This document shows positions 19,272 through 38,069 of a stretch of DNA of 41,230 nucleotides, one piece after another. Below the pieces are notes generated by a model, which was given only the letters and a program-made list of their open reading frames with translations, had not been told where the DNA came from and ran no database searches. The DNA is taken from NCBI GenBank assembly GCA_001874255.1, contig MPDC01000032.1:1-41230 (forward strand), written 5' to 3'. The position numbers and the translations under genes are program-made. The first letter of the stretch is position 1; each line of letters begins with the position of its first letter. This DNA is from Alphaproteobacteria bacterium MedPE-SWcel. Its GTDB lineage: Bacteria > Pseudomonadota > Alphaproteobacteria > Rhodobacterales > Rhodobacteraceae.

Positions 19272-19283
19272 ATGCTAGAGTTC

Positions 19284-19326
19284 GCCCACGTAATTCAACT
19301 GGATAGAATATCCGACTTCTAATCGG
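19284..19326 (+). pseudogene. 5' half of a tRNA-Arg(UCU) gene split by the island (attL)
   Basis: This is a complete tRNA 5' half: acceptor strand GCCCACG, a D-arm with stem ATTC/GAAT around AACTGGATA, anticodon stem TCCGA and loop CTTCTAA with anticodon TCT. After 19326 the sequence no longer fits a tRNA. The missing 3' half, with a perfectly matching acceptor strand CGTGGGC and encoded CCA, is at 38024-38069. The 12 bases ACTTCTAATCGG (19315-19326) are repeated there and are the likely recombination core. The gene is therefore interrupted and cannot give a mature tRNA from this site. Confidence 0.88.
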
Positions 19327-19411
19327 TTGGTCAAGTCCAAATTTTGCTTTGAATTAAAGGTGATTAGCAAGTAGTAGATTATCGCGGACTGTTTTGCAGA
19401 CTGCTTTCAGC

Positions 19412-19488
19412 GGCTCCGTAGCTCAACTGGATAGAGCAAGGACCTTCTAAGTCCGAGGTTGAGGGTTCAAGTCCTTCCGGGGCCGCCA
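19412..19488 (+). tRNA. tRNA-Arg (anticodon UCU), carried by the island
   Basis: A 77-base cloverleaf has acceptor GGCTCCG pairing with CGGGGCC (one G-U), D-loop AACTGGATA with stem GCTC/GAGC, anticodon loop CTTCTAA (anticodon TCT), T-arm GAGGG/CCTTC around TTCAAGT, and an encoded CCA at 19486-19488. It lies 86 bp inside the left end of the island. Its sequence differs clearly from the interrupted tRNA, so it is not a duplicate produced by integration. It reads AGA (and possibly AGG) and may replace the gene destroyed by the island. Confidence 0.95.
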
Positions 19489-19704
19489 AAATCTAAGCTT
19501 GTCGGGATATTAGCGTTTCATCGCGCAATGTCAAAACCCCATGTTCACGACCTCTCAATGAGAAGCGTTGTATGGAGCATCGACCTTATCTGATTTCAGC
19601 ACCCGTAGCGTGAACTGGAGAAGCTGGTAGAGTGGCGCTGCATATCCGCATCTGAACTTTTTTTCGGTTGGTGATGTGAAGAGCATCAACGTGCATGAGC
19701 AGAA

Positions 19705-19754
19705 TTTTTCCATCTCTCATGCCCCTCTATGTGAGGGCATTCAGGATGGAAAAA
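19705..19754 (+). other. 50-base imperfect palindrome
   Basis: TTTTTCCATC at 19705-19714 is perfectly complementary to GATGGAAAAA at 19745-19754. Inside, ATGCCC(C)TC pairs with GAGGGCAT around the loop TATGT with one bulged C. It could be a small RNA, an operator or a bidirectional terminator (the outer arms are T- and A-rich). Confidence 0.7.
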
Positions 19755-19761
19755 CTGCCCG

Positions 19762-19902
19762 GTGAAATTCTCTGGAAGTTTGGTCGGTTCCTGTGTCGCC
19801 TTCATTAAGGATGACTTGGAAGAAAGCCGCAGCCACAAAGTGACGATTTCACGAGTAGGTAATGTGACAGTAGAAGAAAAATCGAAACTGAAAGAAGGTT
19901 AG
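19762..19902 (+). CDS. Possible 46-residue protein of unknown function
   Basis: A GTG at 19762, just after the palindrome, opens a frame ending in TAG at 19900-19902. The C-terminal half (FIKDDLEESRSHKVTISRVG, then an acidic/basic tail) reads like real protein, possibly the end of a larger decayed gene. The ribosome site is poor. Apart from it, 19489-20308 holds no clear gene. Confidence 0.3.
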   Translation: MKFSGSLVGSCVAFIKDDLEESRSHKVTISRVGNVTVEEKSKLKEG

Positions 19903-20308
19903 GCTGCTTTGGACCATCCGAACTTCGGTTTCATGGGATCGTCTGAGCGACAACGCCTCCAACCGAAATCCGGGAGGGCTGGAGACCAAATAACACAGAT
20001 AACTTAAACCATATGGTCAAGGCTCACACAGGCAACACGTGTCTTTGAAAAGCTGGTAGCCGTGCGCCGAAGGGAGTTCCCACAAGTGAAATCCAATCAG
20101 CACTCTGCGTCACCTGATTTCCAGATCCTGCGCGGGCCCTCTTGTGAGGCCGCGCAGATCCGCAAACTCCGGTGAAGCAGAGCCAACAAACACCAACTTA
20201 AGCCAGACCGATAGACGATGCTGCTGCTACAGCGTGTCTGGCCAGACTGCCTTTGGAAAGGAGGAAAACAGGCTTCTTGAGCTGCCGCTTGGAGCAGCAT
20301 TTTTCGGG

Positions 20309-20734
20309 ATGAAACCGATGACTTTCTATAGAACTTTCTCAACCAACCAAACTTGTCTCAAACTCGCACACGTCCGGCAGTTTCTCAGCCAACATGGGAC
20401 TGATTTTGCTCGGGCGGCTCACAGGCTCGGAGGACCTGCCGCCAGTGCTCGCGTGTTCCTGCTCTGTGAAGCTGTACGTTACACGAGGCGCCTGACACGG
20501 GCACAAAGCAGCCAGCTTGTAGACTTCCACCGGTTGCTGACGCTGGAGCATGTCAGCGATCCGGGTCGTATTGAGTGCGGCCTCTTTGCTCATATCAATC
20601 CTGCTTCCGAATTCGTCGATGATTGCTGTGTGTTGTCCGAAAAACTCGGCTCGTTGCTTCGGAAAATCGCTGAGAACGATCCGGCGGAGGGCGGCGTTAC
20701 CCCAGCCTCCCAGAAAATTTCGCAAGCTGCGTGA
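20309..20734 (+). CDS. Island protein of unknown function
   Basis: A protein of about 141 residues from ATG 20309, with the frame open from 20144. It is predicted to be largely helical, with segments such as CLKLAHVRQFLSQHG and FVDDCCVLSEKLGSLLRKIAEN and several cysteines. No signal peptide or known motif is seen. A good AGGAGG at about 20259 lies too far upstream for this ATG, so the true start could be a rare codon nearer to it. The next gene starts 90 bp downstream on the same strand, and the two may be an operon. I do not recognise the family. Confidence 0.5.
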   Translation: MKPMTFYRTFSTNQTCLKLAHVRQFLSQHGTDFARAAHRLGGPAASARVFLLCEAVRYTRRLTRAQSSQLVDFHRLLTLEHVSDPGRIECGLFAHINPASEFVDDCCVLSEKLGSLLRKIAENDPAEGGVTPASQKISQAA

Positions 20735-20825
20735 TACCCCAGGGCCGGCCCGTGCAGGGTCGGCTGCCTTGAAGGGGCGGCCATCCCGGGCGCCCCAACG
20801 AACGACAATTAACTCAAGGGGTATC

Positions 20826-21272: not shown

Positions 21273-21696
21273 GATTTTGCAGGAAACCATATCATGTATC
21301 TTGATCGGGTTTCCTGCCCTTGCAAGGCAGCTGAACGGTACAGCAGCACTCGCGCGCGTTGGCCAATTTCTGATTTCGCGAAGGAAATAAAGCAATAAAA
21401 AACAATGGCATAAATGTTGAAGATTGAAGCATACTGGCTATGTTTGGTGTCAAGATGTGCACGATGCATGACCTGAAAAGGAAGGAAACACTCAACGATC
21501 GGTCAACCGAGCTGCCATTAGCTTTCCCTGGATAACCGATAGTGAAAAGCATTGTATTGGTGAAGGAGCTCAATCTTTGGTCACTCCATCGGCCAAGCCC
21601 AAATTTCTTCGGCGTTTTTGACAGGCCGTCACGGCCGTCCGGATCAAGAGAGTCCGTAACAACCAACGCACTGCTACTAAATGAAGGAGTTTCAGA
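21273..21696. other. Intergenic region before the excisionase-like gene
   Basis: It is AT-richer than its surroundings and has only short overlapping frames, none with a recognisable product. It ends with AAGGAG at 21683-21688, the ribosome site of the following gene. It probably holds the promoter of that gene. Confidence 0.4.
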
Positions 21697-22005: not shown

Positions 22006-22052
22006 AAATCTGGAGCGGCCTGCCGCGACGCCTGCTCGTTCAGGGAGCACCA

Positions 22053-22624: not shown

Positions 22625-24604
22625 ATGCAGCTCGACACTCTAACAATTAAAAACTTCCAGTGCTTCGGCCCGGACGGGATCACGCTGGACATGACCGATC
22701 CGGTGACAACGTTGATCGGTCCAAATGGCGCCGGGAAGACGGCGGTTTTCCAAGCACTCAATCGCATGTTCGGGTTGGGCGAGGCGGCGCGAAAGGTCGA
22801 GAAATCTGACTTCCACCTTCCATTGGATGCAGACGATGTGCCGAACGATTGTGAGCTTCACATTGAAGCAGTCTTCTCGTTTCCTGAACTGGAAGACGAT
22901 GAGGCGGGAGCCGCTGTCGCTGAATTCTGGACACAAATGTCTGCCAGTGATCCCGATGATCCGCTTGTGGTCCGTGTTGTCCTTAAGAGCGTTTGGAGCG
23001 ACGACGGGACGCCCGATGGGGTTATCGAATCAAGTCTTAGGTGGGTCACAAGGGCAGACGAGGACTATGAATGGGACGCGTGCAAGCCGCTGACCGCCGC
23101 TCAACGGTCGGCGATTCAAGTGGTCTACGTTCCAGCCAACCGCGGCTCAATTTCTCAAGTCAAAGCGCTGCTCCGAGGACGACTCTGGCGCGCCGCCCGT
23201 TGGTCCCGAGAACTCCAAGAGTCTTCTGAAGAACAGGCTGAAAACTTGCAGGATGCGTTCCAAAAGGAACGCCCAGTTACATTCATCAGCGATCGTTTGT
23301 CCCAACGATGGCAGCAAGTCAATGAAGCTGGGACCCACTCTCAGCCAGTCCTGAAGCTTACCGAAGATCGCTTCGAGGCGATCATTCGGCATGCCGACGT
23401 GAAATTTTCGCCTGATCCGTCCGGCGCGGATCGTCCGCTTGAACGTTTAAGCGATGGACAAAAATCCTTGTTCCAGATCGCCTTGACTGCCGCTTTGCTG
23501 GAGATCGAACAAGATGCCCTCGAATTGTCGGATGAGAAATCGCCGTTTGAGCCATCACTCCTTAAGCACGTTCCGCTCACCCTGCTTCTGGTCGAAGAAC
23601 CGGAAAACTCGCTGTCGCCGTTTTTCTTGTCGCGCATCATGGACCTTTGCGAGGACATTTCTGAGATGGAAACAGCTCAAGTCATGCTGTCCAGTCACAG
23701 TGCGTCGATCCTTTCCCGAGCGGAGCCGGAAACGCTTCGCTACTGCCGTCTGGATCCGAATACAGGGCACAGCGCGGTCAGAGCACTCACTCTACCGCCC
23801 GCGAAGGCTGAAGCAGGCAAGTATGTGAGACAAGCCGTGCGTGCCTATCCAGAGCTCTACTTCGCGAAGCTTGTTGTGCTTGGCGAAGGCGATTCCGAAC
23901 AGATCATTTTGCCGGAGATTGCTCGCGCGCAAGGCCTTCATCTGGACAAAGCTTTCTGTCCGATCGTTCCACTCGGAGGGCGCCATGTAGAGCACTTCTG
24001 GACTTTGCTCAGAGACCTATCGATCCCGCATGTCACTCTGCTCGATCTTGACTACGGCCGGCAGCATGGCGGAGCTGCCGCAATCCGCGGCATCGTCAAA
24101 AAACTGTTGGAATTCGGGATCGATTTCGATGATTGCAAGCATGTAAAACGCGGCGAAATCAGTCCTGACGATATCGATGAGTTAACTGATGACGACATCA
24201 ACATTGAATATGATGGCCAATCTGAAAAGGCTCTCGGCACATACTGGCTGCAAACGCTCAGGGAACGCGACGTGTTCTTCTCGGAACCGATCGACATCGA
24301 TTTTTCGATGCTCTGGGAATTTCATGATGCTTACGCGAAGCCCACCCCTGGGGGCCACGGGCCAGGAAAATCCAAAGAAGTTGCCTTGGCGCGCAAGAAA
24401 ACCACACTTAAAAAAACCGGCCATCCCGAATATTACGACGAATCTTGGAACTATCTGTTTAGATGGTACCCCTATCTCTTTCTTTCCAAGAGCAAACCGG
24501 CCGCGCATCTTACTGCAATGAACAGACTTAAGAAAAAGGATTTGAAGTCACCGCCAGAAGAGCTCGGCGCCTTGCTTGCCCGAGTCAAGCAATACCTCAG
24601 CTAA
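22625..24604 (+). CDS. gajA: GajA-type OLD-family ATPase/TOPRIM nuclease (Gabija)
   Basis: This 659-residue protein joins an ABC-type ATPase to a TOPRIM nuclease. ATPase motifs are Walker A GPNGAGKT (residues 32-39), the signature-like LSDGQKSLFQIAL, Walker B LLLVEEPENSLSP and the switch histidine region SSHSASIL. The TOPRIM part has LGEGDSEQIILPEIA, with its metal-binding Glu, and TLLDLDYG, the DxD. In Gabija, GajA is a nucleotide-regulated DNA-nicking endonuclease that works with GajB to block phages. It is somewhat longer than the Bacillus GajA. The helicase gene starts 4 bp downstream, so the pair is one operon. Other OLD-nuclease systems exist, but the UvrD partner favours Gabija. Confidence 0.85.
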   Translation: MQLDTLTIKNFQCFGPDGITLDMTDPVTTLIGPNGAGKTAVFQALNRMFGLGEAARKVEKSDFHLPLDADDVPNDCELHIEAVFSFPELEDDEAGAAVAEFWTQMSASDPDDPLVVRVVLKSVWSDDGTPDGVIESSLRWVTRADEDYEWDACKPLTAAQRSAIQVVYVPANRGSISQVKALLRGRLWRAARWSRELQESSEEQAENLQDAFQKERPVTFISDRLSQRWQQVNEAGTHSQPVLKLTEDRFEAIIRHADVKFSPDPSGADRPLERLSDGQKSLFQIALTAALLEIEQDALELSDEKSPFEPSLLKHVPLTLLLVEEPENSLSPFFLSRIMDLCEDISEMETAQVMLSSHSASILSRAEPETLRYCRLDPNTGHSAVRALTLPPAKAEAGKYVRQAVRAYPELYFAKLVVLGEGDSEQIILPEIARAQGLHLDKAFCPIVPLGGRHVEHFWTLLRDLSIPHVTLLDLDYGRQHGGAAAIRGIVKKLLEFGIDFDDCKHVKRGEISPDDIDELTDDDINIEYDGQSEKALGTYWLQTLRERDVFFSEPIDIDFSMLWEFHDAYAKPTPGGHGPGKSKEVALARKKTTLKKTGHPEYYDESWNYLFRWYPYLFLSKSKPAAHLTAMNRLKKKDLKSPPEELGALLARVKQYLS

Positions 24605-24607
24605 CGC

Positions 24608-26476
24608 ATGCCGATCATCAAGCCAAAACACTGGACACCAAAAGGCGTCGCCTCTCTCGAACCGGCAGCGCTCAACGCGATCCGCGAAAACGATAACAAC
24701 CTGTGTGTCGTTGCCAGCGCAGGTGCGGGGAAAACAGAGTTTCTCGCGCAGAAAGCCGACTACCTTCTCTCAACAGGCATTTGCCGTGCGCCCCACAGAA
24801 TTCTGGCCATCAGCTTCAAGAGCGACGCAGCAAAAAACCTGAAGGACCGCGTAAGACAGCGTTGTGGACCAGAGTTTTCGGGAAGGTTCGATTCCCTGAC
24901 GTTCGACGCCTTCTCAAAAGGCCTTGTTGATCGCTTCGGCGCGCTTATCCCTGCGCCTTACACCCCGTCTCCCGACTATGAGATTGCCTTTCCCGGTTTT
25001 CGCGATTGGGATGATTTCTTGAAGCGACATGGTTATCCCCACCTCTCCGGAAAAAAACTTGAACAAGCTGTTGCACGCTGCAGGCTTCCGATTGCAACTC
25101 TGAACCCCAAGAATCCAGAGTGGAAGGACGTCCTCACGCGTTTTTGGGCAGAGTACTATCGGGATGTGAACCTGACACAGTTGACCTTTCCGATGATCAA
25201 CCGCCTCGTGAACTATGTTCTGTCTTGCGATCCGCGCATCGTCACAGGTCTGCAAGCTACATACCCATTTGTCTTTCTTGATGAGTTTCAGGACACCACT
25301 TTCGGACAATATGACCTGCTCAAGCGCCTCTTTCTAAACAGTGATGCGCGCCTCACCGCAGTCGGGGATAACAAGCAGCGGATTATGGTTTGGGCGGGTG
25401 CTATGCCCAATGCGTTCAAGACCTTCACAACCGATTTTGATGCAATGCAAGAAACGCTGCTCTCCAACTGGCGCTCCCATCCTGAACTGGTCGAGATACA
25501 GCATGCGATTGCGGTTTCTCTCGAAGCCACCTCAGCAAAACCCGATGCCAAGCGCGTCAAGGACGTCGATGGGGACGTATGCGCGATCTGGGCATATGAT
25601 GATCCGGTATCTGAATGCGAGGGCCTTGCCAGCTGGATCTCTGCCGCAATTAACTCCGGAGAGATGACCCCTGAAGATTGCGCTGTTCTGGTCCGCTTCA
25701 AACCAGATGTCCTTGAAAGAGAACTCGGACCTGCACTCGCATCACATCGTGTACGTCTTCGAAACATCGCCCGTAGCCCCGACGGGGCTAACATCGCTAT
25801 TCAAGACGTTCTCACGGAGGATGTCACCCAATGTACCATGGCTCTGATGCGTCTCGGCGCGCTTCAAAAAGCGCCCGATGACTGGCACGCCGTCATAGAG
25901 AAGTTGTCCCTGATTTGGGGCTTGGCCCCTGACAACGAGGCCGAACAGGAAATATTGCAAAACCAAGTTAGCTCCAAAATCAAGGACTTGCGCGCTTTCA
26001 TGGCCGCCAATACCCCATCAAATAATTCATGCGCGGTGCTTGTCCAATCGATCTTAGAGTTCGTTGGTGAGGCTGAGTTGCGGGTTACTGTCCCGGCCTA
26101 CCGCCGCGATAAGGACTACCTTCGTGCTCGGACCGGACTGACATGCCTATTGAAGGAATCCGCCGAGGGCGGAACTGATTGGGCAACGGTTACCCGAAAC
26201 TTTGATGGCGTTGGTCAAGTGCCGCTCATGAGCATTCATAAGAGCAAGGGCTTGGAATTCCACACCGTCATCTTCTTCGGTCTCGACAGTGGAACCTGGT
26301 GGTCATTTAAGCCACAGGACAGCGAAGAGATGCGCGCATTCTTTGTCGCGTTCACGCGCGCTATGCAGCGTGTCTATTTCACGTCATGCCGCAGGCGCGG
26401 AAATCGCCTCTCCTATGTCGATGACCTGATGGCCGAAGTGGGCGTTGAACGCGTCCCGGGACCAACCCCAGACTAA
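24608..26476 (+). CDS. gajB: GajB-type UvrD/Rep-like helicase (Gabija)
   Basis: This 622-residue superfamily 1 helicase has motif I SAGAGKTEFL, motif II FLDEFQDT, a motif III/IV region GDNKQRIMVWAGA, motif V HKSKGLEF and motif VI AFTRAMQRVYF. GajB uses ATP and DNA and activates or supports the GajA complex during phage attack. It is longer than the Bacillus GajB (about 494 residues), with extra sequence in the 2B-like region. It starts 4 bp after the gajA stop. Together they form a complete two-gene Gabija-like system inside the island, facing the type I operon. Confidence 0.85.
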   Translation: MPIIKPKHWTPKGVASLEPAALNAIRENDNNLCVVASAGAGKTEFLAQKADYLLSTGICRAPHRILAISFKSDAAKNLKDRVRQRCGPEFSGRFDSLTFDAFSKGLVDRFGALIPAPYTPSPDYEIAFPGFRDWDDFLKRHGYPHLSGKKLEQAVARCRLPIATLNPKNPEWKDVLTRFWAEYYRDVNLTQLTFPMINRLVNYVLSCDPRIVTGLQATYPFVFLDEFQDTTFGQYDLLKRLFLNSDARLTAVGDNKQRIMVWAGAMPNAFKTFTTDFDAMQETLLSNWRSHPELVEIQHAIAVSLEATSAKPDAKRVKDVDGDVCAIWAYDDPVSECEGLASWISAAINSGEMTPEDCAVLVRFKPDVLERELGPALASHRVRLRNIARSPDGANIAIQDVLTEDVTQCTMALMRLGALQKAPDDWHAVIEKLSLIWGLAPDNEAEQEILQNQVSSKIKDLRAFMAANTPSNNSCAVLVQSILEFVGEAELRVTVPAYRRDKDYLRARTGLTCLLKESAEGGTDWATVTRNFDGVGQVPLMSIHKSKGLEFHTVIFFGLDSGTWWSFKPQDSEEMRAFFVAFTRAMQRVYFTSCRRRGNRLSYVDDLMAEVGVERVPGPTPD

Positions 26477-26795: not shown

Positions 26796-29700
26796 TCAAG
26801 CCTGATGATGATGCGAACTATGTGTTTGATATTTATGCTCAAAGAACTTGAACAGCTCATCGGTTCGGACTTCTAACTCAACATCATCGTATTTCGACTC
26901 GGGCAGCCCGGTGTGCTCGTCGTACAAAAGATCGTAGATTTCCTGCCGAATTCCGGCCCGTGTAGACTCCTTTTGGAATGCGTCGTGAACCTGTTCCATT
27001 CGGCGTTTGATAGAATCCAATATGGCTATCGTCGCAGACTTAATCTGCTTGATTTCCTCCTTGGAAAGGTCTTCCCGAAACAGAACGTCAAAGATCGGCT
27101 TCTGGTCAGCGGACAATCCCATAGCCACGTGAGCTTTCGCCTCTGCCTCCATCTCCGCAGCAAGGCGCATGAGAGCCTCGAAGGTCGCCTCAATTGTGTT
27201 TTTGTCTTTCTCTTTGTTGTATTCCTTGATGATCTTGTCGAAGCGTTCTTCAAAATTCGTCAAGGTTGGATTTGCGGCCAGCATTTTCGCCAATCTATTG
27301 CTAACGACCTCACGGAGGTCTTGCGTATCGCTGGCCTTTTTCTCGCGTTTCCCAAACTCCTTACGCAGAAGATCAAAGTTCACCTTCGAAATATCAAAGA
27401 TTCGATCGCCCTCGGTGTCTGGAGTTATTTGGATCGCGTCGGCAACAATTGCGTTGAGACGCTGGATGATCGCTGTCGTATCAGCTTCCGCCTTATCATC
27501 CTGGAGGGAGCTATAAATGTAGTTGATCGCTTGGTACGATCCTTTGAAATCCTCTGCCCATGCAAAGGTTAGGCATGCCTTGTATTTCCTGAAAACAGCC
27601 CGCGCGACAATTTCAAAGCCTTTCCGGGTTTCATCGTTCTGGTTGATTGTCTCTTTTGCATCTTTAAGAGCCTTGAGCTTGTCAAAGCCTTCGGCCTTGC
27701 GCAGCCGGTCCAAATCGAACCCACCATCTTTCAGGCGTTCTCCGACCAGCGCAATTGCTTCGACGAGTTCGTTTCGCAGCTTTTCCTCTGGATTTACAGG
27801 ATCGACGTCGGGCCCAGGCTCATCTGGGCCACCAAGAGTTCCACCTCCTGTATGGCCAGCAAAAGTCGCAAGGGCTTTTCGAAGGTTTTTCAGGATGCCG
27901 CAGTAGTCGACGATTAGTCCGTTGTTCTTGCCTTCCTTCACGCGGTTGGCTCGCGCAATGGCCTGCATTAGGGTGTGCGCCTGCAGAGGCTTGTCGAGGT
28001 ATAGAGTCGAAAGAGAAGGCACGTCGAAGCCAGTCAGCCACATGGCGCAGACGATCACAATGCGGAAGGGATGCTCTTCCCGTTTGAACGCTGTCTCGAC
28101 ATCCAGCCGCTTCTCGATTTCGCGACCACCGACCTTTTCCTTGACCGTGAAGCCATCCTTCATTCGTTTGCGATGCGGGATGATGTCGAGACCCCAGTCT
28201 TTGAATTTCTTGATCTCATTCTGCTCGTCGCTGACAACAACGGCCATCTCGGTCTCACGCATCCAGGCAATCTTGGCCTCGCGCTGAAGCCGTTCTTGGT
28301 CGTCGGCGATGGAACCGAGTTCAGCCTCCAGCGCTGCGATCAGGGCCTCCCACTCGGCCTGAATGTAGTTGAACATTCGAACGGCCGTGACCTTGTCGAT
28401 GGCGACATACATCGCCTTGCCACTTTCCCAATTGGTCGAGAAGTGCCAGGCGAAATCTTTCGCCACATGCTTCAGCCGTGGCTCTGCTGTGACGATGTGA
28501 TACTCGCGTTTCAGATCATCTGACAGTTTCGCGGCCACATCCGGATCATCCACCTCGGCTTCGGCCAATGCATCAGCAAGGCGGCCATTCAGGTCTGCTC
28601 CCGCGATCTTTAGCTTGTCGCCACGCGCGTCGTAGAACAGCGGCAAAGTCGCTCCGTCCTCGATGGCATCCTGGAAGTCGTAGGTGGACAGATACCCACC
28701 AAACACCTGCCTGGTAATCTCGTCATTGGCGAACAGCGGCGTGCCGGTGAAGCCGATGAAGCTGGCATTCGGCAGCCCCTTGCGCATGTTCAGCGCCAGC
28801 ATCCCGTATTGGGTCCTGTGCGCCTCGTCTGTCACGACGATCAGCTTGTCATTGGTCGAGTAGACCCCATTCCCAGCCTCATCATCGGTGAACTTCTGGA
28901 TCATCGTAAAGACGACCTTCTTCTGCTGCCCCAGCAGCTCGCGCAGGTTCTTCGCAGAGGACGCGCGGCAGGCGTCCTTGTCATTGTTGGCCAATCCGAC
29001 AGACGCAAAGGTCTTGTAGATCTGGTTGTCCAGATCGGTTCGGTCGGTCAGGATCAGGAAGGTGAAATCGCCGCCCAGCTTGCGGTGGACCTTCTGGGTG
29101 AACAGCGCCATCGAGAAGGACTTGCCTGACCCTTGGGTATGCCAGAAGACACCCAGCTTGCGCTCCAGATCCTCCCGGGTCTTCACGGCCTCCACGGCCC
29201 GGTTCACGCCCAGATACTGGTGGTTCTTTGCGATGATCTTTGCCAGCCCGTTGGCACCGTCTGCGAACAGGATAAAATTCTCGAACAGGTCCATGAACCG
29301 CCGCTTATCGCAGACGATCTTCAGCAGCGCTTCCATCGGCAGGCGTGCATCGCGCCGGTCGCGCTCATCCAGCTTCAGCCATTCGGCGAAATGCGCGTAT
29401 TCGGCGCTGATCGAGCCCATCCGCCCCTCTTCGCCATTCCCGAGGATGACGAAGGCGTTGAAGTGGAACAGGTGCGGGACCGTGTCTTTGTAGTCGCTCA
29501 GGTTCTCGGCATAGGCGCGGCGCAGGTCCTTGTCGGGGCGCTTGAGCTCGCAGAACATCAAGGGCAGTCCGTTGACGAAGCCCACAATGTCAGCCCGCCG
29601 ACGGTGGGCATAGCCGCGGATCCACATCTCGCGCACACAAAGGAAGTCGTTGTTCTCGGGCGTGTCGAAATCGAAGACGCGCAGGTGTTCGACGCGGGGC

Positions 29701-30032
29701 TCATTGTCTTGGCGGAACTTCACCTGCACGCCATCGCGGAGCAGCTCGTATTTCTCCTGATTGGTTTTCAGCAAGGATTGCGAGGCGAAGGTTTCGGTGA
29801 TCTGTCGCAGGGCCTGAGCGTAAGCCTCATCCGGCAGGCCGGGGTTCAGGGTGACCAGCGCGTCGGACAGGTAACGGGTCAGGATCACGTCCTTGTCGGA
29901 CTTGCGGCCCAGCGTGCCCTCGGGGCCGAAGGTCTCGCTGTTCCACGCCATGACGGATCGCCAGCCATGCTCATCGGCCAGATAATCGGCCATGGTTTTT
30001 TGGACTAAAAGGTCTTCGGTAAAATCGTTCAT
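26796..30032 (-). CDS. hsdR: Type I restriction endonuclease subunit R (HsdR)
   Basis: This 1078-residue motor/nuclease subunit cleaves DNA after ATP-driven translocation when sites are unmethylated. The N-terminal nuclease region has the PD-(D/E)xK elements, with Asp in RRADIVGFVNG and ExK in CELKRPD. The helicase part has HTQGSGKSFSM (Walker A), TDRTDLDNQI, VTDEAHRTQ (DEAH) and FIGFTGTPLF. The C-terminus is the helical HsdR/EcoEI-R tail. It is the last gene of the minus-strand operon, starting 9 bp after hsdS. Length and motifs look intact, so active restriction is expected. Confidence 0.95.
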   Translation of the reverse strand: MNDFTEDLLVQKTMADYLADEHGWRSVMAWNSETFGPEGTLGRKSDKDVILTRYLSDALVTLNPGLPDEAYAQALRQITETFASQSLLKTNQEKYELLRDGVQVKFRQDNEPRVEHLRVFDFDTPENNDFLCVREMWIRGYAHRRRADIVGFVNGLPLMFCELKRPDKDLRRAYAENLSDYKDTVPHLFHFNAFVILGNGEEGRMGSISAEYAHFAEWLKLDERDRRDARLPMEALLKIVCDKRRFMDLFENFILFADGANGLAKIIAKNHQYLGVNRAVEAVKTREDLERKLGVFWHTQGSGKSFSMALFTQKVHRKLGGDFTFLILTDRTDLDNQIYKTFASVGLANNDKDACRASSAKNLRELLGQQKKVVFTMIQKFTDDEAGNGVYSTNDKLIVVTDEAHRTQYGMLALNMRKGLPNASFIGFTGTPLFANDEITRQVFGGYLSTYDFQDAIEDGATLPLFYDARGDKLKIAGADLNGRLADALAEAEVDDPDVAAKLSDDLKREYHIVTAEPRLKHVAKDFAWHFSTNWESGKAMYVAIDKVTAVRMFNYIQAEWEALIAALEAELGSIADDQERLQREAKIAWMRETEMAVVVSDEQNEIKKFKDWGLDIIPHRKRMKDGFTVKEKVGGREIEKRLDVETAFKREEHPFRIVIVCAMWLTGFDVPSLSTLYLDKPLQAHTLMQAIARANRVKEGKNNGLIVDYCGILKNLRKALATFAGHTGGGTLGGPDEPGPDVDPVNPEEKLRNELVEAIALVGERLKDGGFDLDRLRKAEGFDKLKALKDAKETINQNDETRKGFEIVARAVFRKYKACLTFAWAEDFKGSYQAINYIYSSLQDDKAEADTTAIIQRLNAIVADAIQITPDTEGDRIFDISKVNFDLLRKEFGKREKKASDTQDLREVVSNRLAKMLAANPTLTNFEERFDKIIKEYNKEKDKNTIEATFEALMRLAAEMEAEAKAHVAMGLSADQKPIFDVLFREDLSKEEIKQIKSATIAILDSIKRRMEQVHDAFQKESTRAGIRQEIYDLLYDEHTGLPESKYDDVELEVRTDELFKFFEHKYQTHSSHHHQA

Positions 30033-30041
30033 GCTCAGATA

Positions 30042-31226
30042 CTACTCTGGGATGGGAATGCGTCCATCCATTAAACGCGGAAGGAGAAGGTCGCGGGCAT
30101 TGGCGAGCTTTTGGTTTTGACGCCGAAGATTGTCAGCTTCAGACCAAATTGGGTCTGCGATCTCGTTATAGGATTGCAGAGTATCGTCTTCCGGGACGAT
30201 GGAGTTGACATGTGATATCCCAGCTAAAGTTAACTGAGGTTGAGCTGCGCCCGTCCTCATGTCTTGCATTCTTAGGGTTTCACAAGCGTTCATCGCGAAG
30301 TGAAACCTGATCCCGTCCGCCTTGTGTTTCGGGCGGAAAACGAAGCAGTTATTGGTCACGAAGGTTGGTCCAAAAGTCCGCCGCACGTTTCCGCTGCCGT
30401 TTCCTCGACAAGTCACTAAACACATGCTCTCAGAAACGTTTTCTTTCTCGAAAAAGCCGATGATCCCGTCCGCGCCATGAACAGGATACGTGCCCGTTTC
30501 GGTGATTTTCGTTTTGGGAAGATTTTTGCCGTAAGAGATATCCCAGATTTCGGAGATTGGGCGTCGTTTCCACCCCTCCGGCAAGCCATCGACGAACTTG
30601 GTTGTCTCGGAGCCGGGGAAGCGGAAATGGACGAACCATTCGCGATACAAAAGCCGCGCCGCCTGCTCCAACAACGCAATCCGCCGCCGGTTGTTCTCGA
30701 TCAGGTCGTCATAGGCCGACAGAATCCCCGCGATCCGTTCCTGCGTCTGCAAGGGCGGGATTTCCACTTCAAACGCCTTGATGGCACCGATCCCGATACG
30801 GATTTGGTTGGCCGCACCCTTGCCTGCATTTTGAACATAGTCTTGAAACAGCCGGGATTGACCAATCCGACAAAGGAATGATTGATAAAGTTCAGGACTG
30901 CATGATCGCATTAGAACGGCATTCTGGTTCAGAAGCATTCCAGCAATGGCATCATTCGCAACTGCTGCTCGTCCCGCAGCTGAAGGCAATGACGGGTGCG
31001 AGCCAACCGTTGCAATAATCAAATCGCCGCTTCGAATTTGATGTCGCTTGTATTGGTTGAATTTCTCAGAGTTCAGGAATTTTTGGCCGGCTAAATCGAA
31101 GCCTTCCTTTTTGATGTTGCTGACTTGAACAACTGGATACCCCGCATCCGCATAATCGCTTTGATTCCACGCTCCACCATTCACAAAGTCGCATACGTCG
31201 CCGAGCCTCACCGTTGAGTGACTCAT
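30042..31226 (-). CDS. hsdS: Type I specificity subunit S (HsdS)
   Basis: This 394-residue subunit sets the DNA target through two target-recognition domains (about residues 1-150 and 205-350), separated by a conserved helical spacer (PPLQTQERIAGILSAYDDLIENNRRRI) and ended by a second one (QNQKLANARDLLLPRLMDG). The two recognition regions are unlike each other, as expected for a two-part target. The start overlaps the end of hsdM by 4 bp, and the stop is 9 bp from hsdR. The gene looks complete. The recognition sequence cannot be read from the protein alone. Confidence 0.95.
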   Translation of the reverse strand: MSHSTVRLGDVCDFVNGGAWNQSDYADAGYPVVQVSNIKKEGFDLAGQKFLNSEKFNQYKRHQIRSGDLIIATVGSHPSLPSAAGRAAVANDAIAGMLLNQNAVLMRSCSPELYQSFLCRIGQSRLFQDYVQNAGKGAANQIRIGIGAIKAFEVEIPPLQTQERIAGILSAYDDLIENNRRRIALLEQAARLLYREWFVHFRFPGSETTKFVDGLPEGWKRRPISEIWDISYGKNLPKTKITETGTYPVHGADGIIGFFEKENVSESMCLVTCRGNGSGNVRRTFGPTFVTNNCFVFRPKHKADGIRFHFAMNACETLRMQDMRTGAAQPQLTLAGISHVNSIVPEDDTLQSYNEIADPIWSEADNLRRQNQKLANARDLLLPRLMDGRIPIPE

Positions 31227-33319
31227 ACGATCAACTCCGCGAAATTCTTCGCGATGGTCTCTGCCAGCTCCGCCGCCTCGGCATTCAGGGTCTCCAGCTC
31301 GTCATGGATTTCCTTAATCGCTTCTTCGAAATCGAAATCCTCATCATCCTCTTCGGGTGCCACGCCCACATAGCGGCCCGGTGTCAGGCTATAGTCGTTC
31401 TCGGCCAGCTCGGCCTGATCCACCAGCTTCACCAGCCGCTCGACATCACGCAGCCGCCCTTCGGGGAAGCGCGACAGCAGCCAGTCTGCCTGCCCCTCGA
31501 AATAACGGAAGCGTTTCAGCGTCCCGCTGGGCGTCAGGTGGATTTCCGGATCGCCTGTCAGCGCCACACGCGCCTCGGTAATCGCCGCCAGATGTTTCTT
31601 GCCGTCTGAAATGACCTTGCGCATGGCAGCCAAGGCTTTCTTGGCTGCGTCTTCATCGCTGATCGCCTCGACCTTGGCTTTCAGGGTCTCAGACGCTTTC
31701 TCCTGCCCCTTCTGGGCAAGCTTTGACAAGTGGTCGATTTCCTTGATCAAGGTCTTTGCCTGATCTGCCAGCGGCTGCATCGCCGTCCACGCCGCCGTCA
31801 GCGCGCCAATCGTGGCATCAGGCTGTACCAGCGCGGTGGCAGCCTCCCCATAGGCCTGTGCATCGGTGGTCAGCTTCTCGATCCCCGTTTTCAATTCGGT
31901 GGTGTCGGTTTGCGCGGTGAAATGGGTGCAAGCCTTGCCCAGGACATCGAGCAGCTCGGCAAAGTCGGTCTGCTGCGCCTCGTCCCGCGCGGTGGACAGA
32001 TAGTTCTGCACCAGCCCCGCAAAGCGGTCTTCCTGCCCACGGTAGAGCCAGACGATGGAAGTCAGGTTCTTTTCCTGTTCAGGGGAAAAGTCGCAGATCT
32101 TGCGCGTCACCTTGCGGAAAACCTGCCGCGCGTCCAGCATCAGTACTTTGTCGCGCAGATGCTCGGGCTTGCCCTTGTCCATAAACCAGATTTCGCAGGG
32201 CACGGTGCGCGTGTAGAAAAAGTTGCCCCGGATCGCGAGCATGACATCCATGTCGCCGGTCTTGACCATCGCCTCGCGGACCTTGGCCTCTTGCCCACCC
32301 GCCGAGGACGCCTGGGACGACATCACGATGCCGGCGCGGCCGGTGTCGGACAGGTAGGAATGGAAAAAGGACATCCAGACGTAGTTGCCGTTCGAGACCT
32401 TGCCTTTGTTGTTCACGCCGGGGAGGCCGAAGGAGAGGCGCTTGTCGTCCTTCATCTTCTCTGCGTCGATTTCGTCGACGTTGAAGGGCGGGTTGGCCAT
32501 AACGTAGTCGAAGGGGGCTTTGTTCTTGTGCGGGTCTTCGTAGTAGCTGATGGCCTTCTGGATGTCGCCTTCGAGCCCGTGGACCGCAAGGTTCATCTTG
32601 GCCAGGCGTAGGGTCGTCGGGTTCTTTTCCATTCCATAAAAGGTCAGGCGTTCGTTCGGGTTGGCCTTCATAGCCTCCACGAAGTGGGCAGACTGCACGA
32701 ACATGCCGCCAGAGCCGCAGGCCGGGTCGATGACTGTGCCGCTCGTGGGCTCGATGACATTCACGATGGTTTCAACTATGCTGATCGGCGTGAAAAATTC
32801 GCCGTTGTCGTGAGCCTTCTGGTCGGCAAACTGGGTCAGGAAGTATTCGTAGATGCGGCCAAAAACGTCGCCGTCTGCTTTGTGAAGTGCCGGGTCGTTG
32901 AAAATCCGCAGCACCTGTCGCAAGGCGTCTTCATCAAGCTCGGCATATTCCTGTTTCGGCAGGAGACCTTCCAAGGTGGTGTAGTCTTCCTCGATCGATT
33001 TCATCGCTGCGATGACGGCCGTAGACGCGGTTTCGCTTTCAGGAAGGCTCACCAGGTAATCGAACTGGGCGTTATCGCGCAGGAAAATGGACGAACGCGC
33101 TGAGAAATCTTCCTTGGTCAAAGCGCGGGTCTTGCCCCCGCGAGATGGCAGGGTCGGGATGATCTCGTCACGCACCTTGAGAAAGCGCGAATAGGCGTGG
33201 CGTAGGAAGATCAGGCCCATGACGGGCATGAAGTATTCGTTGCTGGCGAAGTTCGAGTTGGCCCGAAGGGAGTCCGCAGCGCCCCAAAGACGCTGTTCCA
33301 GTTTGCCGATATGCTCCAA
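31223..33319 (-). CDS. hsdM: Type I DNA methyltransferase subunit M (HsdM)
   Basis: This 698-residue adenine-N6 methyltransferase has an N-terminal HsdM helical domain, the SAM-binding motif VIDPACGSGGMFVQ and the catalytic NPPF in YVMANPPFNVDE. The C-terminal 250 residues or so are an extra helical region (QAKTLIKEIDHLSKLAQKGQ and following), longer than in EcoKI (529 residues) but seen in other type I M subunits. It is the first gene of the minus-strand hsdMSR operon, so the promoter should lie in 33320-33746. All motifs are intact. Confidence 0.95.
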   Translation of the reverse strand: MEHIGKLEQRLWGAADSLRANSNFASNEYFMPVMGLIFLRHAYSRFLKVRDEIIPTLPSRGGKTRALTKEDFSARSSIFLRDNAQFDYLVSLPESETASTAVIAAMKSIEEDYTTLEGLLPKQEYAELDEDALRQVLRIFNDPALHKADGDVFGRIYEYFLTQFADQKAHDNGEFFTPISIVETIVNVIEPTSGTVIDPACGSGGMFVQSAHFVEAMKANPNERLTFYGMEKNPTTLRLAKMNLAVHGLEGDIQKAISYYEDPHKNKAPFDYVMANPPFNVDEIDAEKMKDDKRLSFGLPGVNNKGKVSNGNYVWMSFFHSYLSDTGRAGIVMSSQASSAGGQEAKVREAMVKTGDMDVMLAIRGNFFYTRTVPCEIWFMDKGKPEHLRDKVLMLDARQVFRKVTRKICDFSPEQEKNLTSIVWLYRGQEDRFAGLVQNYLSTARDEAQQTDFAELLDVLGKACTHFTAQTDTTELKTGIEKLTTDAQAYGEAATALVQPDATIGALTAAWTAMQPLADQAKTLIKEIDHLSKLAQKGQEKASETLKAKVEAISDEDAAKKALAAMRKVISDGKKHLAAITEARVALTGDPEIHLTPSGTLKRFRYFEGQADWLLSRFPEGRLRDVERLVKLVDQAELAENDYSLTPGRYVGVAPEEDDEDFDFEEAIKEIHDELETLNAEAAELAETIAKNFAELIV

Positions 33320-33746: not shown

Positions 33747-35297
33747 CTAAGAGAACTCAGCATACTTTCGGAAAAGCGAAAGCTCAGCTGGGTCGGGAAT
33801 AGCCTCAAGGCTTTCAGGATTGCCAACGACAATCTTCGCAACATCAAGTGCAGCTACGAGAGCGGGGTTGCTTATCCAGTCGTTGTTCCAAAGTTGAGCG
33901 GCTTTACCGTCGACGATCTGACAGATCGGCTCGGAGCTATCGAAATTCAGGGCAAAGCCTTTGGCTCTGGTAACCCGTTGCAACCAGATTTCCTGATGTC
34001 CGTTGTTAGGTATCCTTTGCATCTTCATCTGAACCTGCTTCCACAAATCAGGCCGTTTAGCCTCCGGGGCCAAGGCAATAAGTTTAGCAAGAATCCCGGA
34101 TAGGGCTGGAAATGTGCGTGGCGAGACGACGGCGATATCACAAACAATAGCGATTTGCACTCGCAGGTCCGCTGGCGCTTGTTTTATTCCAACCATCTTT
34201 TGAAATGCGGCATCCGCAAGCCGGTTAAGGGCACCTGAATTTGGATAACGGCGCGCAAATGCGTGCAAGCGCAAAAGCTGTTTTTGAATAGTCTTGGCCT
34301 GTGTGATATCCATGTCTTCAAGTTGGATACCAGCTAATTTTTCAGGCTTGATCGTCGCCTCGACAATGTTGGTGCTCTCTGAAGTTTTTGCGGCACCGAG
34401 TTGCATCCCGACCTCTCGCAAGCAGTCACTGATTATACGAACGATCTCAGCGCCGCGACGGTCACTTAGCGTAAATACGCTGTAGTCGTCGCGATATCTC
34501 AGGATGTGGAAATCTTTCTTTCCCTCCAGTTTCTCCGATATTCGATGATCAACATACCCCAAGACCAACTCAGCGATTAGGTCCATTAATACGGAACCCT
34601 GCGTAATCCCGTTTGTTTGCCCGTAGCGACCGTCCCGAATGTGCCGATCAATCTTGTTTCCCATGAGATTGTCAGACTGGTCGGCCTTGGCCTCGTCAAA
34701 CCCATGCAGTGCCCAAGGGATGCTATGGGTGTACAAAGAGCCATAGCAGTTCGTCACATCGGTTTTGAGAACATGCGTATATTCTAAAGATAGTTCGAGT
34801 GAACGCTGTTCATATCGAAGCCACCAGTTCAATATCTGGGCTTCATCATGACCATCACCGTTATCCGGCGCAACCAGGTGGCTGGTGCATTCCACTGAGT
34901 CGCAATGGAGTACTTTGAAACGGTCCTGAAGAAGCTTCCAGTTTGCTGGGTCGCAGATTGTCTGGAGAAGCGTGATGTAGATCGCGGGGTGGATCAGTTC
35001 AAAGGTTCTCCATCCGAAACGGCCATCTTTTGTGCTAATGATCTGGTAGTTGACACCAGATAGTTCAAACGTTCGCATGGGCTTTGGCTTTTGGAATGCG
35101 GTGTAGGACTGCCCTCCCAAGACTTGGTCAACGTCCTTCAAAAGCTGACCAAAGCTGATGTACGAAGGGAAATCAGATCGAAAGTAGCATTCTGGGCGTA
35201 GCAAGTAAGCTCTGGCATCGGCTGCATCTAAATCAATAATCCGAGGCATGGGTGCTTTTTCCACTTCGAGCATCTCTATTGTGGCACATTGTAACAC
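33747..35297 (-). CDS. Orphan reverse transcriptase, defence-associated (UG/Abi/DRT-like)
   Basis: The protein has up to 516 residues. RT motifs are in order: LKTDVTNCYGSLYTHSIPWAL (motif A, with the first catalytic Asp), YGQTNGITQGSVLMDLIAE (motif B; NGITQG rather than NGIPQG) and LRYRDDYSVFT (motif C with YRDD). A fully helical C-terminal region of about 180 residues follows, as in the abortive-infection and unknown-group RTs. No maturase (group II intron) or retron msr/msd pattern is visible. It lies between a type I RM operon and integrases in a defence island. The start may be ATG 35249 rather than 35297. The exact DRT class is not assignable by eye. Confidence 0.85.
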   Translation of the reverse strand: MLQCATIEMLEVEKAPMPRIIDLDAADARAYLLRPECYFRSDFPSYISFGQLLKDVDQVLGGQSYTAFQKPKPMRTFELSGVNYQIISTKDGRFGWRTFELIHPAIYITLLQTICDPANWKLLQDRFKVLHCDSVECTSHLVAPDNGDGHDEAQILNWWLRYEQRSLELSLEYTHVLKTDVTNCYGSLYTHSIPWALHGFDEAKADQSDNLMGNKIDRHIRDGRYGQTNGITQGSVLMDLIAELVLGYVDHRISEKLEGKKDFHILRYRDDYSVFTLSDRRGAEIVRIISDCLREVGMQLGAAKTSESTNIVEATIKPEKLAGIQLEDMDITQAKTIQKQLLRLHAFARRYPNSGALNRLADAAFQKMVGIKQAPADLRVQIAIVCDIAVVSPRTFPALSGILAKLIALAPEAKRPDLWKQVQMKMQRIPNNGHQEIWLQRVTRAKGFALNFDSSEPICQIVDGKAAQLWNNDWISNPALVAALDVAKIVVGNPESLEAIPDPAELSLFRKYAEFS

Positions 35298-35414
35298 ACG
35301 CCGCTTTCGATCCGAACTTAAAGTGCGTCAGGTCGAGGCGTCCAGCGGTTTACGCCTGCGGAGGCTGACTAACCTTGCACATTCCAAATAGGGTCGGTGG
35401 TCCCGGCAGAGAGG

Positions 35415-36653
35415 TCATTCCAGTAATTTGTCCATCACTTTTCCACATAACAGTCGATCAATCTTCTGGGAGATTTTGTTTTGGTATGCCAGGCTGTCGC
35501 AACGCGATAATGGCACCTTGGACAACTTAAGACCGCATCTCATATCATGATTCTTCCTCAGGAAGTTGTCGGGAACCTTCAGGCCCTTTACGACTTCGAG
35601 ATACGTATTTCTTAATACATGCCCTGTACGGCCCATCATCGTTTTTTCGCGGCATATGGTCGGTCGATCTTTATTTTGCGAGTTCGGAAACAAATATTTA
35701 CAGTCCGGGTGGGGTAAAACTGAGAATTCGCATGCCTCTGCGGCAAACCTTCTCAGTTGGTTTGAAAGCGGAAATTCGACGTCCTTGTCATTGGCAAAGG
35801 TACCAATAGGAAATCGGATTATTGCTTCTTCAAAGTGCACCCAGTCGCGCTGTATTCTGACAAGTGCTGAAGGCTTGAGGCCCGAGTACAGGTGAAAAAA
35901 GTGCATATTTTGACGTTGGACGCTATGAAGATTTTCAATATCGAGGCTCCATTGGTGCAATTTTGAAAACGGTATCTTATTCTCTAAAGAGAAATCATGT
36001 CCCTCGGCGGTAATGAAGTTTGCGATTTGCGTTGTATCTATACTTGGAAAACCTCCATCGTTCATCTGGAAAAGTACTTCCATAAGGCGGGCGCAAATTT
36101 TGGCTGAAGATGCGCCTTCGCGATCTTTGATGCTGTAAAGGAGTTGAATTGCATCACAGGTTAGTATTTTCTCCGGTTGCTTATTCTCCCACGGTCGAAA
36201 GTAATGCTCCACCCGTCGGAGGGTCAGGTTTCTATGAGATAGGCTTGAATTTTTATGTTTTTCTCTGATGGCTTCACTCGCCCATTCGGGGAACGAGACG
36301 AATGAGCGTTCAGGTTTTTTGTCAGGCACTGGATACTTGTGATGTTGGATTGTACGGCGAGCTTCTTTACGAGCAACACCCACACTTATTTCCGCATGAG
36401 TGCCCAGTGTGCGTCGAATTGAATGCCTGCGTCCATCTTTGGTTACATCCACTTGAATTTTGAAAGATTTTCTTGATCTCGAAACGGATAAGAAGAAGCC
36501 TTTCAACTCAATGTCTCTGATGATGAAGTCGCTACCTTTCCACCTGGAAGAAGCGACGAGCTTATCGGTTAGCTTAGCTTTCATTGAATTATCAACCTGA
36601 ATGTGCAATGATTTTGGTGAAATGGCTGCGTCAGGTTTCATCGTGGCACCCAA
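35415..36653 (-). CDS. Tyrosine recombinase paralogue, probably degenerate
   Basis: Up to 412 residues, of the same family as the next integrase; their N-terminal arm-binding regions align (MKAKLTDKLVASSRWKG against MKTRLTETLIKNTQWKG). The catalytic domain is recognisable, with a SGLKPSALVRIQ box and HVLRNTY. However, the first catalytic arginine, normally in SGLRR, is Lys-Pro, and the usual LLGH(K) box is poorly conserved. A tyrosine near the end (SLAYQNK) may be the nucleophile. It is either inactive, a regulator of the neighbouring integrase, or a diverged recombinase. By homology the true start may be ATG 36584. It lies about 85 bp downstream of the other integrase gene, or 14 bp using the earlier start. 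Confidence 0.75.
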   Translation of the reverse strand: MGATMKPDAAISPKSLHIQVDNSMKAKLTDKLVASSRWKGSDFIIRDIELKGFFLSVSRSRKSFKIQVDVTKDGRRHSIRRTLGTHAEISVGVARKEARRTIQHHKYPVPDKKPERSFVSFPEWASEAIREKHKNSSLSHRNLTLRRVEHYFRPWENKQPEKILTCDAIQLLYSIKDREGASSAKICARLMEVLFQMNDGGFPSIDTTQIANFITAEGHDFSLENKIPFSKLHQWSLDIENLHSVQRQNMHFFHLYSGLKPSALVRIQRDWVHFEEAIIRFPIGTFANDKDVEFPLSNQLRRFAAEACEFSVLPHPDCKYLFPNSQNKDRPTICREKTMMGRTGHVLRNTYLEVVKGLKVPDNFLRKNHDMRCGLKLSKVPLSRCDSLAYQNKISQKIDRLLCGKVMDKLLE

Positions 36654-36667
36654 CGCAGCGTTGCATT

Positions 36668-37858
36668 TCAGCCCTTCAACATGTGCTCGTCGATGAAACG
36701 AGAAATCAACTTTTGATCATGCAGGAGCTGTCCAAAGAGTTGTGGTTCGTCGATGTAGCGCCCGCGAATCCCTGCAATCTTGTGGCCCAAAAGAAGGTCA
36801 CCATTGCGGTCCGACACACCAGCCAAAGCTGCAATTGTGCGGTAAGTCCTCCGCGAAGTATGCCCTGTGCGGTGGTTGAGTGCTTTCTCATTCGCGGCTA
36901 CAATCGGTTTTACTTGGCCATCTTTTCCGACTGTTGGAAACAGCCATGGAGAACGAGGATACATACGTTTGCTGCAAGTCGATGTGTTTTTGAAAATTTG
37001 GATCAACTGATCCGAAACTGGCACCGAAAGATCTTCGCCGTTCTTCATCGCTCTTCCGGGTATGTTCATGCAGCTTTTGCGCTCGTCGAGCCAGTCGTGC
37101 TCAATCTTAGATGCGGTTGCCCTGCGAAGTCCTGAGTAAAGCATTGTCAGGTGAAAACCCCGACGGATAGGGTTTTTGATGATCTGCAAAGCTTCATACC
37201 AACTCGGAAGCTCTTCTAAGATCATAGTTCTTCCGTTCTTCGGCTTTGGGTTGTTATACTCAAAACCCTCGAATGGATTGTGGTCGATCGTTCCTGCCGG
37301 CGTTCGAGGACGAATGTAGCGATATGAGGACGAGAGAAGTTTTATCGCCTTGTCGGCAGTCACGGCACCATGGCACTTGGTCAGTTTCTTGTGGAGCTCG
37401 TAAGCTTTGTGAAGTTCATAGTCAGCTGCAGACTCACTATGGATCGCTTTCAGATAGCGAACTGAAATTTGACTGTAGCCTTCACAGGTGGCTGGGCGGC
37501 GGCCTTTTTCTTGCCGTGAAAGGATGAACAGATCCACCATCTTTTTTATGTTGTATTCGTAAGTTTCAGTTTTTTTGAAGGGGTCGGTCCCGGCTTTGAT
37601 CTGCGATAAATAGGTCGCGGCCTGAGTTCTCGCATCGCGCAGGGATATTTGTTCGACGCTCGCAAAGGCTTGGTTGACGCTTCTGACTTTTTTCTTCTGA
37701 CCTGGTGTGCCAACCCAGAGATCTGCTTTCACTTTGAAGGTTTTGGTGTGCTTGTTGATGGCGACATAGAACCCTGGCAAAGAAGCATCGACGAGCCTTA
37801 CTTCCTTGCCCTTCCACTGGGTGTTTTTAATGAGGGTTTCTGTTAAGCGTGTTTTCAT
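36668..37858 (-). CDS. Tyrosine recombinase (island integrase)
   Basis: This 396-residue integrase has an N-terminal arm-type DNA-binding domain (residues 1-85), a core-binding SAM-like domain (about 95-190) and a catalytic domain. Catalytic residues are visible as Arg in LYSGLRRATASKI, HxxR in GHTSRRTYRT, the LLGHK box and a tyrosine in RGRYIDE. ATG 37858 follows AGGA by about 11 bases; upstream in-frame codons lack a ribosome site. The gene lies 165 bp from the right attachment site in the tRNA 3' half and points into the island, the usual place for the gene that mediates integration into tRNA genes. Confidence 0.93.
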   Translation of the reverse strand: MKTRLTETLIKNTQWKGKEVRLVDASLPGFYVAINKHTKTFKVKADLWVGTPGQKKKVRSVNQAFASVEQISLRDARTQAATYLSQIKAGTDPFKKTETYEYNIKKMVDLFILSRQEKGRRPATCEGYSQISVRYLKAIHSESAADYELHKAYELHKKLTKCHGAVTADKAIKLLSSSYRYIRPRTPAGTIDHNPFEGFEYNNPKPKNGRTMILEELPSWYEALQIIKNPIRRGFHLTMLYSGLRRATASKIEHDWLDERKSCMNIPGRAMKNGEDLSVPVSDQLIQIFKNTSTCSKRMYPRSPWLFPTVGKDGQVKPIVAANEKALNHRTGHTSRRTYRTIAALAGVSDRNGDLLLGHKIAGIRGRYIDEPQLFGQLLHDQKLISRFIDEHMLKG

Positions 37859-38023
37859 GTTTTCGACTTTCCTAATGTTACGCTGCCGAACGGGACGAAG
37901 ACCGTTTTCTGACTGCGTGGTGCAATAGTGATATTGGCCAAAATCGATCAAGCGAAATGAAAATACTAGTAATTTCAATGCGTTATAGGGTGATATCGGG
38001 CAATATCGAAGTCGAAGCTACTA

Positions 38024-38069
38024 ACTTCTAATCGGGCTGTTGGGGGTTCGAGTCCTCCCGTGGGCGCCA
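38024..38069 (+). pseudogene. 3' half of the split tRNA-Arg(UCU) (attR)
   Basis: The segment starts with the 12 bp core ACTTCTAATCGG shared with 19315-19326. It continues with a variable loop, T-arm GGGGG/CCTCC around TTCGAGT, acceptor strand CGTGGGC and an encoded CCA at 38067-38069. Its acceptor strand pairs perfectly with GCCCACG of the distant 5' half, and the joined anticodon stem TCCGA/TCGGG pairs with one G-U. It therefore belongs to the tRNA cut by the island. It has no promoter or 5' half of its own here. Confidence 0.88.

Follow-up and report, generated by a model that had tools for sequence, protein, structure and literature searches.

The closest described parallel to the locus studied here is tRNA-dependent lysogeny, reported for actinobacteriophages (Fionnbharth and others; Guerrero-Bustamante and Hatfull, 2024; PMC10865867). 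According to that account, temperate phages with an arm-domain tyrosine integrase enter an attachment (att) site, attB, in a host tRNA-Lys, tRNA-Ile2 or tRNA-Leu gene, do not rebuild the gene and carry a cognate tRNA in its place; arm-type repeats flank the core. The same article cites the Lj965 prophage of Lactobacillus johnsonii, which also leaves the tRNA gene split and bears the cognate tRNA. Two Sinorhizobium meliloti prophages resembling Mesorhizobium phage vB_MloP_Lo5R7ANS split the centre of tRNA-Leu(UAG) and supply a foreign isoacceptor (PMC11476347). In contrast, Islander-type islands, which share the tyrosine integrase, the anticodon-centred site and the displaced 3' fragment, rebuild their target from a fragment borne on attP (PMC4383910). 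Here we describe an 18,709-bp island of Alphaproteobacteria bacterium MedPE-SWcel, contained in 41,230 nucleotides of contig MPDC01000032.1 (the window), which interrupts a host tRNA-Arg(UCU) gene in its anticodon loop and carries an intact tRNA-Arg(UCU) gene of its own.

This island shares with tRNA-dependent lysogeny an arm-domain integrase, an attB within a host tRNA gene, a target that is not rebuilt, a cognate tRNA on the element and arm-type repeats around the core. The shared core of 12 bp, with a part of 7 nt common to related elements, compares with 8-17 bp for the non-rebuilding phages in Table 2 of PMC10865867. Several features set it apart: the target is tRNA-Arg(UCU) and the host an alphaproteobacterium, the cargo consists of defence genes, the window open reading frames (ORFs) scanned include no recognised phage structural gene, and the tRNA follows the attP arm at an almost constant distance. 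Moreover, the requirement for the element tRNA was proven by mutation in actinobacteriophages, whereas we infer it here. The island appears to work in the manner of tRNA-dependent lysogeny, but as far as seen it is not phage lysogeny. It shares with the S. meliloti prophages a host among the Alphaproteobacteria, a split tRNA centre and a supplied isoacceptor; those are two cases, and the portion of PMC11476347 available to us describes no recurrent island family or fixed arrangement of att site and tRNA. Lj965, in turn, differs in being a Lactobacillus prophage.

The original prediction, made from the window sequence alone, held that a tRNA-Arg(UCU) gene is split with both halves recognisable, and its coordinates, core and encoded CCA proved correct. 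The 12-bp core ACTTCTAATCGG is present in both halves (19315-19326 and 38024-38035). ARAGORN reported tRNA-Arg(tct) for the joined halves and nothing for either half alone. The predicted pairing was also found, with 7/7 Watson-Crick pairs in the acceptor stem and 5/5 pairs, including one G-U, in the anticodon stem. ARAGORN is a weak test of such joins, as 23 of 30 deliberately crossed joins made from six elements passed too, and more reliance was therefore placed on matches in relatives. In G005, a genome of the same genus, an intact gene matches the joined window sequence over 80 nt (97.5%). For a sister island in Roseovarius lutimaris, the joined host tRNA (first 76 nt tested) has exact copies at two loci (L049 in G022 and L051 in G026). 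RNA folding was uninformative: the cargo tRNA (z -1.08) and the joined tRNA (z -1.55) were not clearly better than shuffles, the predicted minimum fold of the joined tRNA was not a cloverleaf, and a 77-nt fold around the displaced 3' half was not better than shuffles.

Comparison with other elements placed the crossover more closely. The shared cores are 12 bp in the window, 10 bp in R. lutimaris (ACTTCTAATC), 9 bp in G319 (GACTTCTAA) and 8 bp in G422 (CTTCTAAG), and the part common to all four is CTTCTAA, the anticodon loop itself, in agreement with the crossover position proposed earlier. The accompanying claim that the island ends are fixed to the base did not hold, since from the window alone the crossover could lie anywhere within 12 bp, and it is the other elements that narrow it to the 7-nt loop. 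These data support the view that the island entered tRNA-Arg(UCU) by recombination within the anticodon loop and that the target gene was not rebuilt. The prediction was thus right that the promoter-proximal end is not restored, but gave an incomplete picture in implying that the tRNA is simply left broken: 85 bp past the core, on the same strand as the host halves, the island has an intact tRNA-Arg(UCU) gene that the original prediction overlooked and whose sequence differs from that of the split host tRNA.

We consider it very probable that this is a tRNA-replacing, site-specific genomic island, in which the single tRNA-Arg(UCU) gene of the host has been split and the island's own tRNA has taken over. 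In the mechanism that we propose, the tyrosine integrase would recombine the short attP core (7-nt CTTCTAA) with the anticodon loop of the host gene. The attP carries no 3' half, and the target would therefore remain split while the island is present. The island's tRNA-Arg(UCU), which comes just after the left attP arm in the same orientation, would assume AGA decoding. Precise excision would rebuild the host gene, and any other loss of the cargo tRNA should kill the cell, which would tie the Gabija, type I restriction-modification and AbiP2-like reverse transcriptase genes of the island to host survival.

The arrangement recurs in other genomes. Relatives of the integrase were found in 5 of 394 family genomes including the window's own (threshold 1e-50), in 1 of 18 genus genomes (its own only, 1e-40), in 2 of 385 genomes of a class sample (its own and G489, 1e-70) and, with an integrase profile, in 7 of 398 genomes of a phylum sample including its own (1e-60), with G1108 and G1085 scoring as near relatives; the relative in R. 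lutimaris (Rhodobacterales) matched at 68%, which suggests that the window's host is akin to Roseovarius-like marine Alphaproteobacteria. A tandem pattern, TTCTAA followed 85-115 nt on by a D-arm, was run over the 394 family genomes and matched 11, of which seven are real (G000, the window's genome, and G154, G159, G230, G319, G343 and G422). The other four were chance tRNAs with other anticodons, and the reversed pattern gave no match in these genomes. One further genome of the genus (G008) also carries a left end. Both ends were found in G000, G434 (R. lutimaris, on two contigs), G159, G319, G343, G422 and G1085, and all seven elements, from at least six genera, have the order 5' half, spacer, intact UCU tRNA, integrase and 3' half, with the intact tRNA just inside the left crossover. 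Including the genomes with a left end only (G230, G154 and G008), the intact tRNA-Arg(UCU) follows the crossover at 10 of 10 left ends. The five islands with both crossovers on one contig measure 18,709 (window), 14,279, 13,383, 12,755 and 11,931 bp from crossover to crossover. The spacer after TTCTAA is 89 nt in three elements that we call type A, 97-98 nt in six of type B and 88 nt in G1085; integrases of the two types match at 31-32%. An integrase tree was poorly resolved (3/12 inner branches starred, G343 not included, G978 partial) and was not used.

In the three type A islands the cargo tRNAs are identical (77/77), while the split host tRNAs differ: the 5' host halves share 30-32 of 39-40 aligned positions and the spacers 78-87 of 89. 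The identical cargo beside differing host halves shows a conserved tRNA that moves together with the island. In the six elements besides G1085 the host halves re-pair (6/6), with one anticodon-stem mismatch in G159. In plasmids and phages the best relatives reached 28% and 26%. Among viral contigs only one relative was found, a contig of 6.5 kb with an orphan 3' half of loop CCT (Arg-CCU-like) and no tRNA, and an exact search of viral contigs for the junction of spacer and cargo gave no match.

At 10 of 10 left ends, in both subfamilies, arm-type repeats begin +70 and +82 from TTCTAA, with the sequence GACTG in the three type A elements and GAACCG in seven type B elements (including G1085); thus the cargo tRNA starts directly behind the left attP arm. 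On the right, repeats lie at -144, -132 and -121 in both type A islands for which a right end was found, at -157, -134 and -123 in G159, G319, G343 and G422, and two near -134 and -123 in G1085. The window integrase, for which the family alignment suggests a start near 37858, retains R285, H373, R376, H399 and Y408. Its neighbouring full-length paralogue is perhaps an accessory DNA-binding protein; a degenerate paralogue also occurs in R. lutimaris (about 50% over 266 aa). The HTH_17 protein, which matches its counterparts in four type B islands at 51-61% over 51 aa, is a candidate directionality factor. The retained catalytic residues, both att sites, the arm repeats and the host halves that still pair all speak against a dead island, integrated once and now immobile, with its tRNA as a fixed xenologous replacement. 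This explanation draws on G008, G154 and G230, which keep the left end and the cargo tRNA but have no related integrase at the thresholds used (1e-40 and 1e-50) and no displaced 3' half by exact patterns. We regard it as unlikely for the window island, although it is the alternative that fares best.

A conventional island, whose attP-borne 3' half rebuilds the target, would follow the usual rule for tRNA-targeting islands as set out for Islander (PMC4383910), and one such case may exist at the same site. In G001, the right flank of the window lies past about 9.6 kb of prophage-like DNA, with an intact tRNA at one end and a 3' fragment near the right flank; this insertion (L162, G001:C63, 8615-18270; portal, capsid and terminase genes) apparently uses the conventional mode. 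For the window island such restoration is very improbable: in none of the six elements examined did ARAGORN find a tRNA at attL, and in 8 of 10 elements local alignments of the spacer with tRNA 3' halves scored no higher than letter shuffles. A decayed 3' half in the left attP arm, as would be left if restoration had come first and replacement later, was considered and rejected, with no support in those eight elements and weak support in the other two (G000 and G434, where 35 and 15 of 500 shuffles scored at least as high).

Flank synteny was compared over 16 same-genus tRNA-Arg(UCU) loci. The left flank of the window lies directly upstream of the tRNA in three (G015, G016 and G001) and the right flank directly downstream in eight (G010, G011, G013, G003, G012, G007, G006 and G016); the remaining loci have no flank match beside the tRNA. 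In G016 and G001 the right side is the weaker one, as part of the right-flank match is a recurring sequence and the match spans only some 150 bp in these two genomes. In the window, TTGCACGTTTTGGCGG...CATGCACACCCCCTGTCAA (38085-38145) is repeated in G000:C29 and C7 and behind the tRNA-Arg genes of relatives. G016 is an orthologous empty site, with both flanks within about 300 bp of each other and one UCU match, although its tRNA differs in sequence. At another locus (L044/L176, G010:C82, 165-270) the tRNA-Arg(UCU) lacks an encoded CCA and is surrounded by an inverted repeat, with the orthologous right flank downstream. The single tRNA-Arg(UCU) sequence diverges strongly among the species G001-G017, and at least some of these genes occupy one syntenic locus, together a hint that the gene has been replaced repeatedly within the genus.

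Tandem tRNA genes are possible, and the intact tRNA might then be an old chromosomal neighbour with the island starting after it. This can be largely dismissed, given that the same spacer and cargo tRNA stand behind different host halves in R. lutimaris and G230, that arm repeats separate the crossover from the cargo tRNA, and that no empty-site relative with tandem tRNAs was seen, G016 having one UCU match only. Equally hard to credit is separate transcription of the distant halves followed by joining as RNA, as occurs for split tRNAs in some archaea: the window halves do pair perfectly in the acceptor stem, but the carried tRNA makes RNA joining unnecessary, we know of no bacterial splicing system that joins split tRNAs, and the G230 5' half differs at 3/39 positions from those of G154 and G008, which may reflect a different host gene and not decay.

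Of the 43 tRNA genes found with Rfam and typed in the draft genome (54 contigs, 99.68% complete), the cargo tRNA is the sole UCU gene, and an exact pattern search of G000 matched only the cargo tRNA and the displaced half. With an exact 3'-part pattern, one UCU match each was obtained in 16 of 16 other genus genomes (that of G008 being the cargo copy; G014, 67% complete, was left out of the count), and two matches, cargo and displaced half, in G000, G434, G159, G319 and G343. The pattern missed the cargo copies of G422 and G154, both recovered by a separate search. From these sequence matches it looks as if the host tRNA-Arg(UCU) is single copy and an imported copy is present wherever it is split. 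AGA is in use, making up 13 of the 4,978 codons of ten chromosomal ORFs of the window.

Several points weigh against replacement by a mobile island. The 43-gene list lacks tRNA-Tyr, tRNA-Ile(GAU) and tRNA-Ala(UGC); since these are necessary, some tRNA genes must be unassembled or missed, and a second UCU gene is therefore possible. No sigma-70-like site was scored on the + strand of 19150-19700, and our guess is that the window cargo tRNA is transcribed by read-through from the host tRNA promoter; in 6 of 7 type B spacers, TTGCGA-17 nt-TATYAR can be discerned by eye just 5' of the tRNA, overlapping the arm repeats. In the anticodon stem of the cargo tRNA, the outermost pair is an A-G mismatch. 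Two elements with only a right end (G489 and G1108) show no cargo tRNA before the contig end, and the G1085 halves come from different tRNAs. Finally, we infer the present mobility of the island, and the transcription and essentiality of its tRNA. The G1085 element itself (L209, G1085:C30, 9360-18380), with halves of different tRNA genes, is a mosaic and may have arisen when two islands of this kind stacked or recombined.

The features of the window island are collected in Table 1. No phage structural genes were recognised by Pfam among the 13 window island ORFs scanned, and no relaxase or conjugation genes among the same ORFs, a set without some small ORFs. The Pfam scan of type B covered eight ORFs of G343 and two of G422. 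It identified a VapE primase, a resolvase, a C5 methylase and a BsaWI-like endonuclease in G343 and an Eco57I-type methylase in G422. An integrase, an HTH_17 regulator and a VapE-type primase, the set expected of satellite-like islands, were seen in G343, the one type B element scanned for VapE; no VapE match was obtained in the window island scan. The absence of phage genes was thus checked for the window and partly for G343.

Table 1. Positions of the island's attachment sites, tRNA gene and protein-coding genes in the window.
Feature	Position	Strand	Remarks
5' half of host tRNA-Arg(UCU) (attL)	19284..19326	+	97.7% over 44 nt vs intact G005 gene
Anticodon loop CTTCTAA, left crossover segment	19316..19322	+	Narrowed from att sites of four elements
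Left attP arm	19323..19411	+	Arm-type repeats GACTG at 19387 and 19399 (+70, +82 from TTCTAA)
Intact cargo tRNA-Arg(UCU)	19412..19488	+	ARAGORN and Rfam; 77/77 in two sister islands
HTH_17 (AlpA/excisionase-like) protein, 102 aa	21697..22005	+	Pfam HTH_17 2.3e-8
GajA (Gabija defence)	22625..24604	+	PADLOC 3.3e-226
GajB (Gabija defence helicase)	24608..26476	+	9.5e-204
Type I restriction HsdR	26796..30032	-	
Type I specificity HsdS	30042..31226	-	
Type I methylase HsdM	31223..33319	-	
AbiP2-like defence reverse transcriptase	33747..35297	-	2.9e-172
Full-length integrase paralogue	35415..36653	-	Aligned along integrase; without catalytic Arg and Tyr
Tyrosine integrase	36668..37978	-	Pfam Phage_integrase, Arm-DNA-bind_3
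Right attP arm repeats	37888..37915	+	37888 GAACGG, 37900 GACCG, 37911 GACTG
Displaced 3' half of host tRNA-Arg(UCU) (attR)	38024..38069	+	CCA at 38067-38069

More distant integrases from the phylum sample (L202, L203, L204, L205 and L206) have as neighbours orphan tRNA 3' halves of the types Arg(ACG), Lys(CUU) and Lys(UUU), with anticodons read by eye. The G922 element has an intact tRNA-Lys(UUU) 13.9 kb from attR and looks conventional. No intact tRNA was found in the fetched 60 kb of G866, 60 kb of G978, and 60 and 19 kb of two G963 elements; in one of the latter a second copy of the 3'-half string lies at a distance of 47.7 kb, and it too lacks a 5' half. These elements were kept out of the family counts.

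The actinobacteriophage study asks how widespread the strategy is beyond its own phages (PMC10865867). In the literature searched, which lay outside most subscription journals, we found no description of non-phage tRNA-replacing islands, and the part of the tycheposon literature at hand (PMC10872708) does not mention tRNA replacement. The elements described here represent a recurrent family from another phylum in which the layout of att site and tRNA is conserved, and the window member has no phage gene in the ORFs scanned. Going by the Islander principle as presented in PMC4383910, tools that look for a fragment to match each intact tRNA would probably place the left ends of such islands wrongly. 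More tentatively, and with slightly less than even confidence, we propose an alphaproteobacterial island family, at least some members non-phage, whose att-plus-tRNA cassette swaps the host's single, essential tRNA-Arg(UCU) for the island's own at each integration; such islands would be hard to lose, would cause repeated xenologous turnover and would lock in antiviral cargo, and the relics G008, G154 and G230 would live on the imported tRNA alone. The family suggests a selfish reason for the presence of tRNA genes on mobile elements, a route by which essential tRNA genes may give way to foreign ones and a possible means for defence islands to resist loss.

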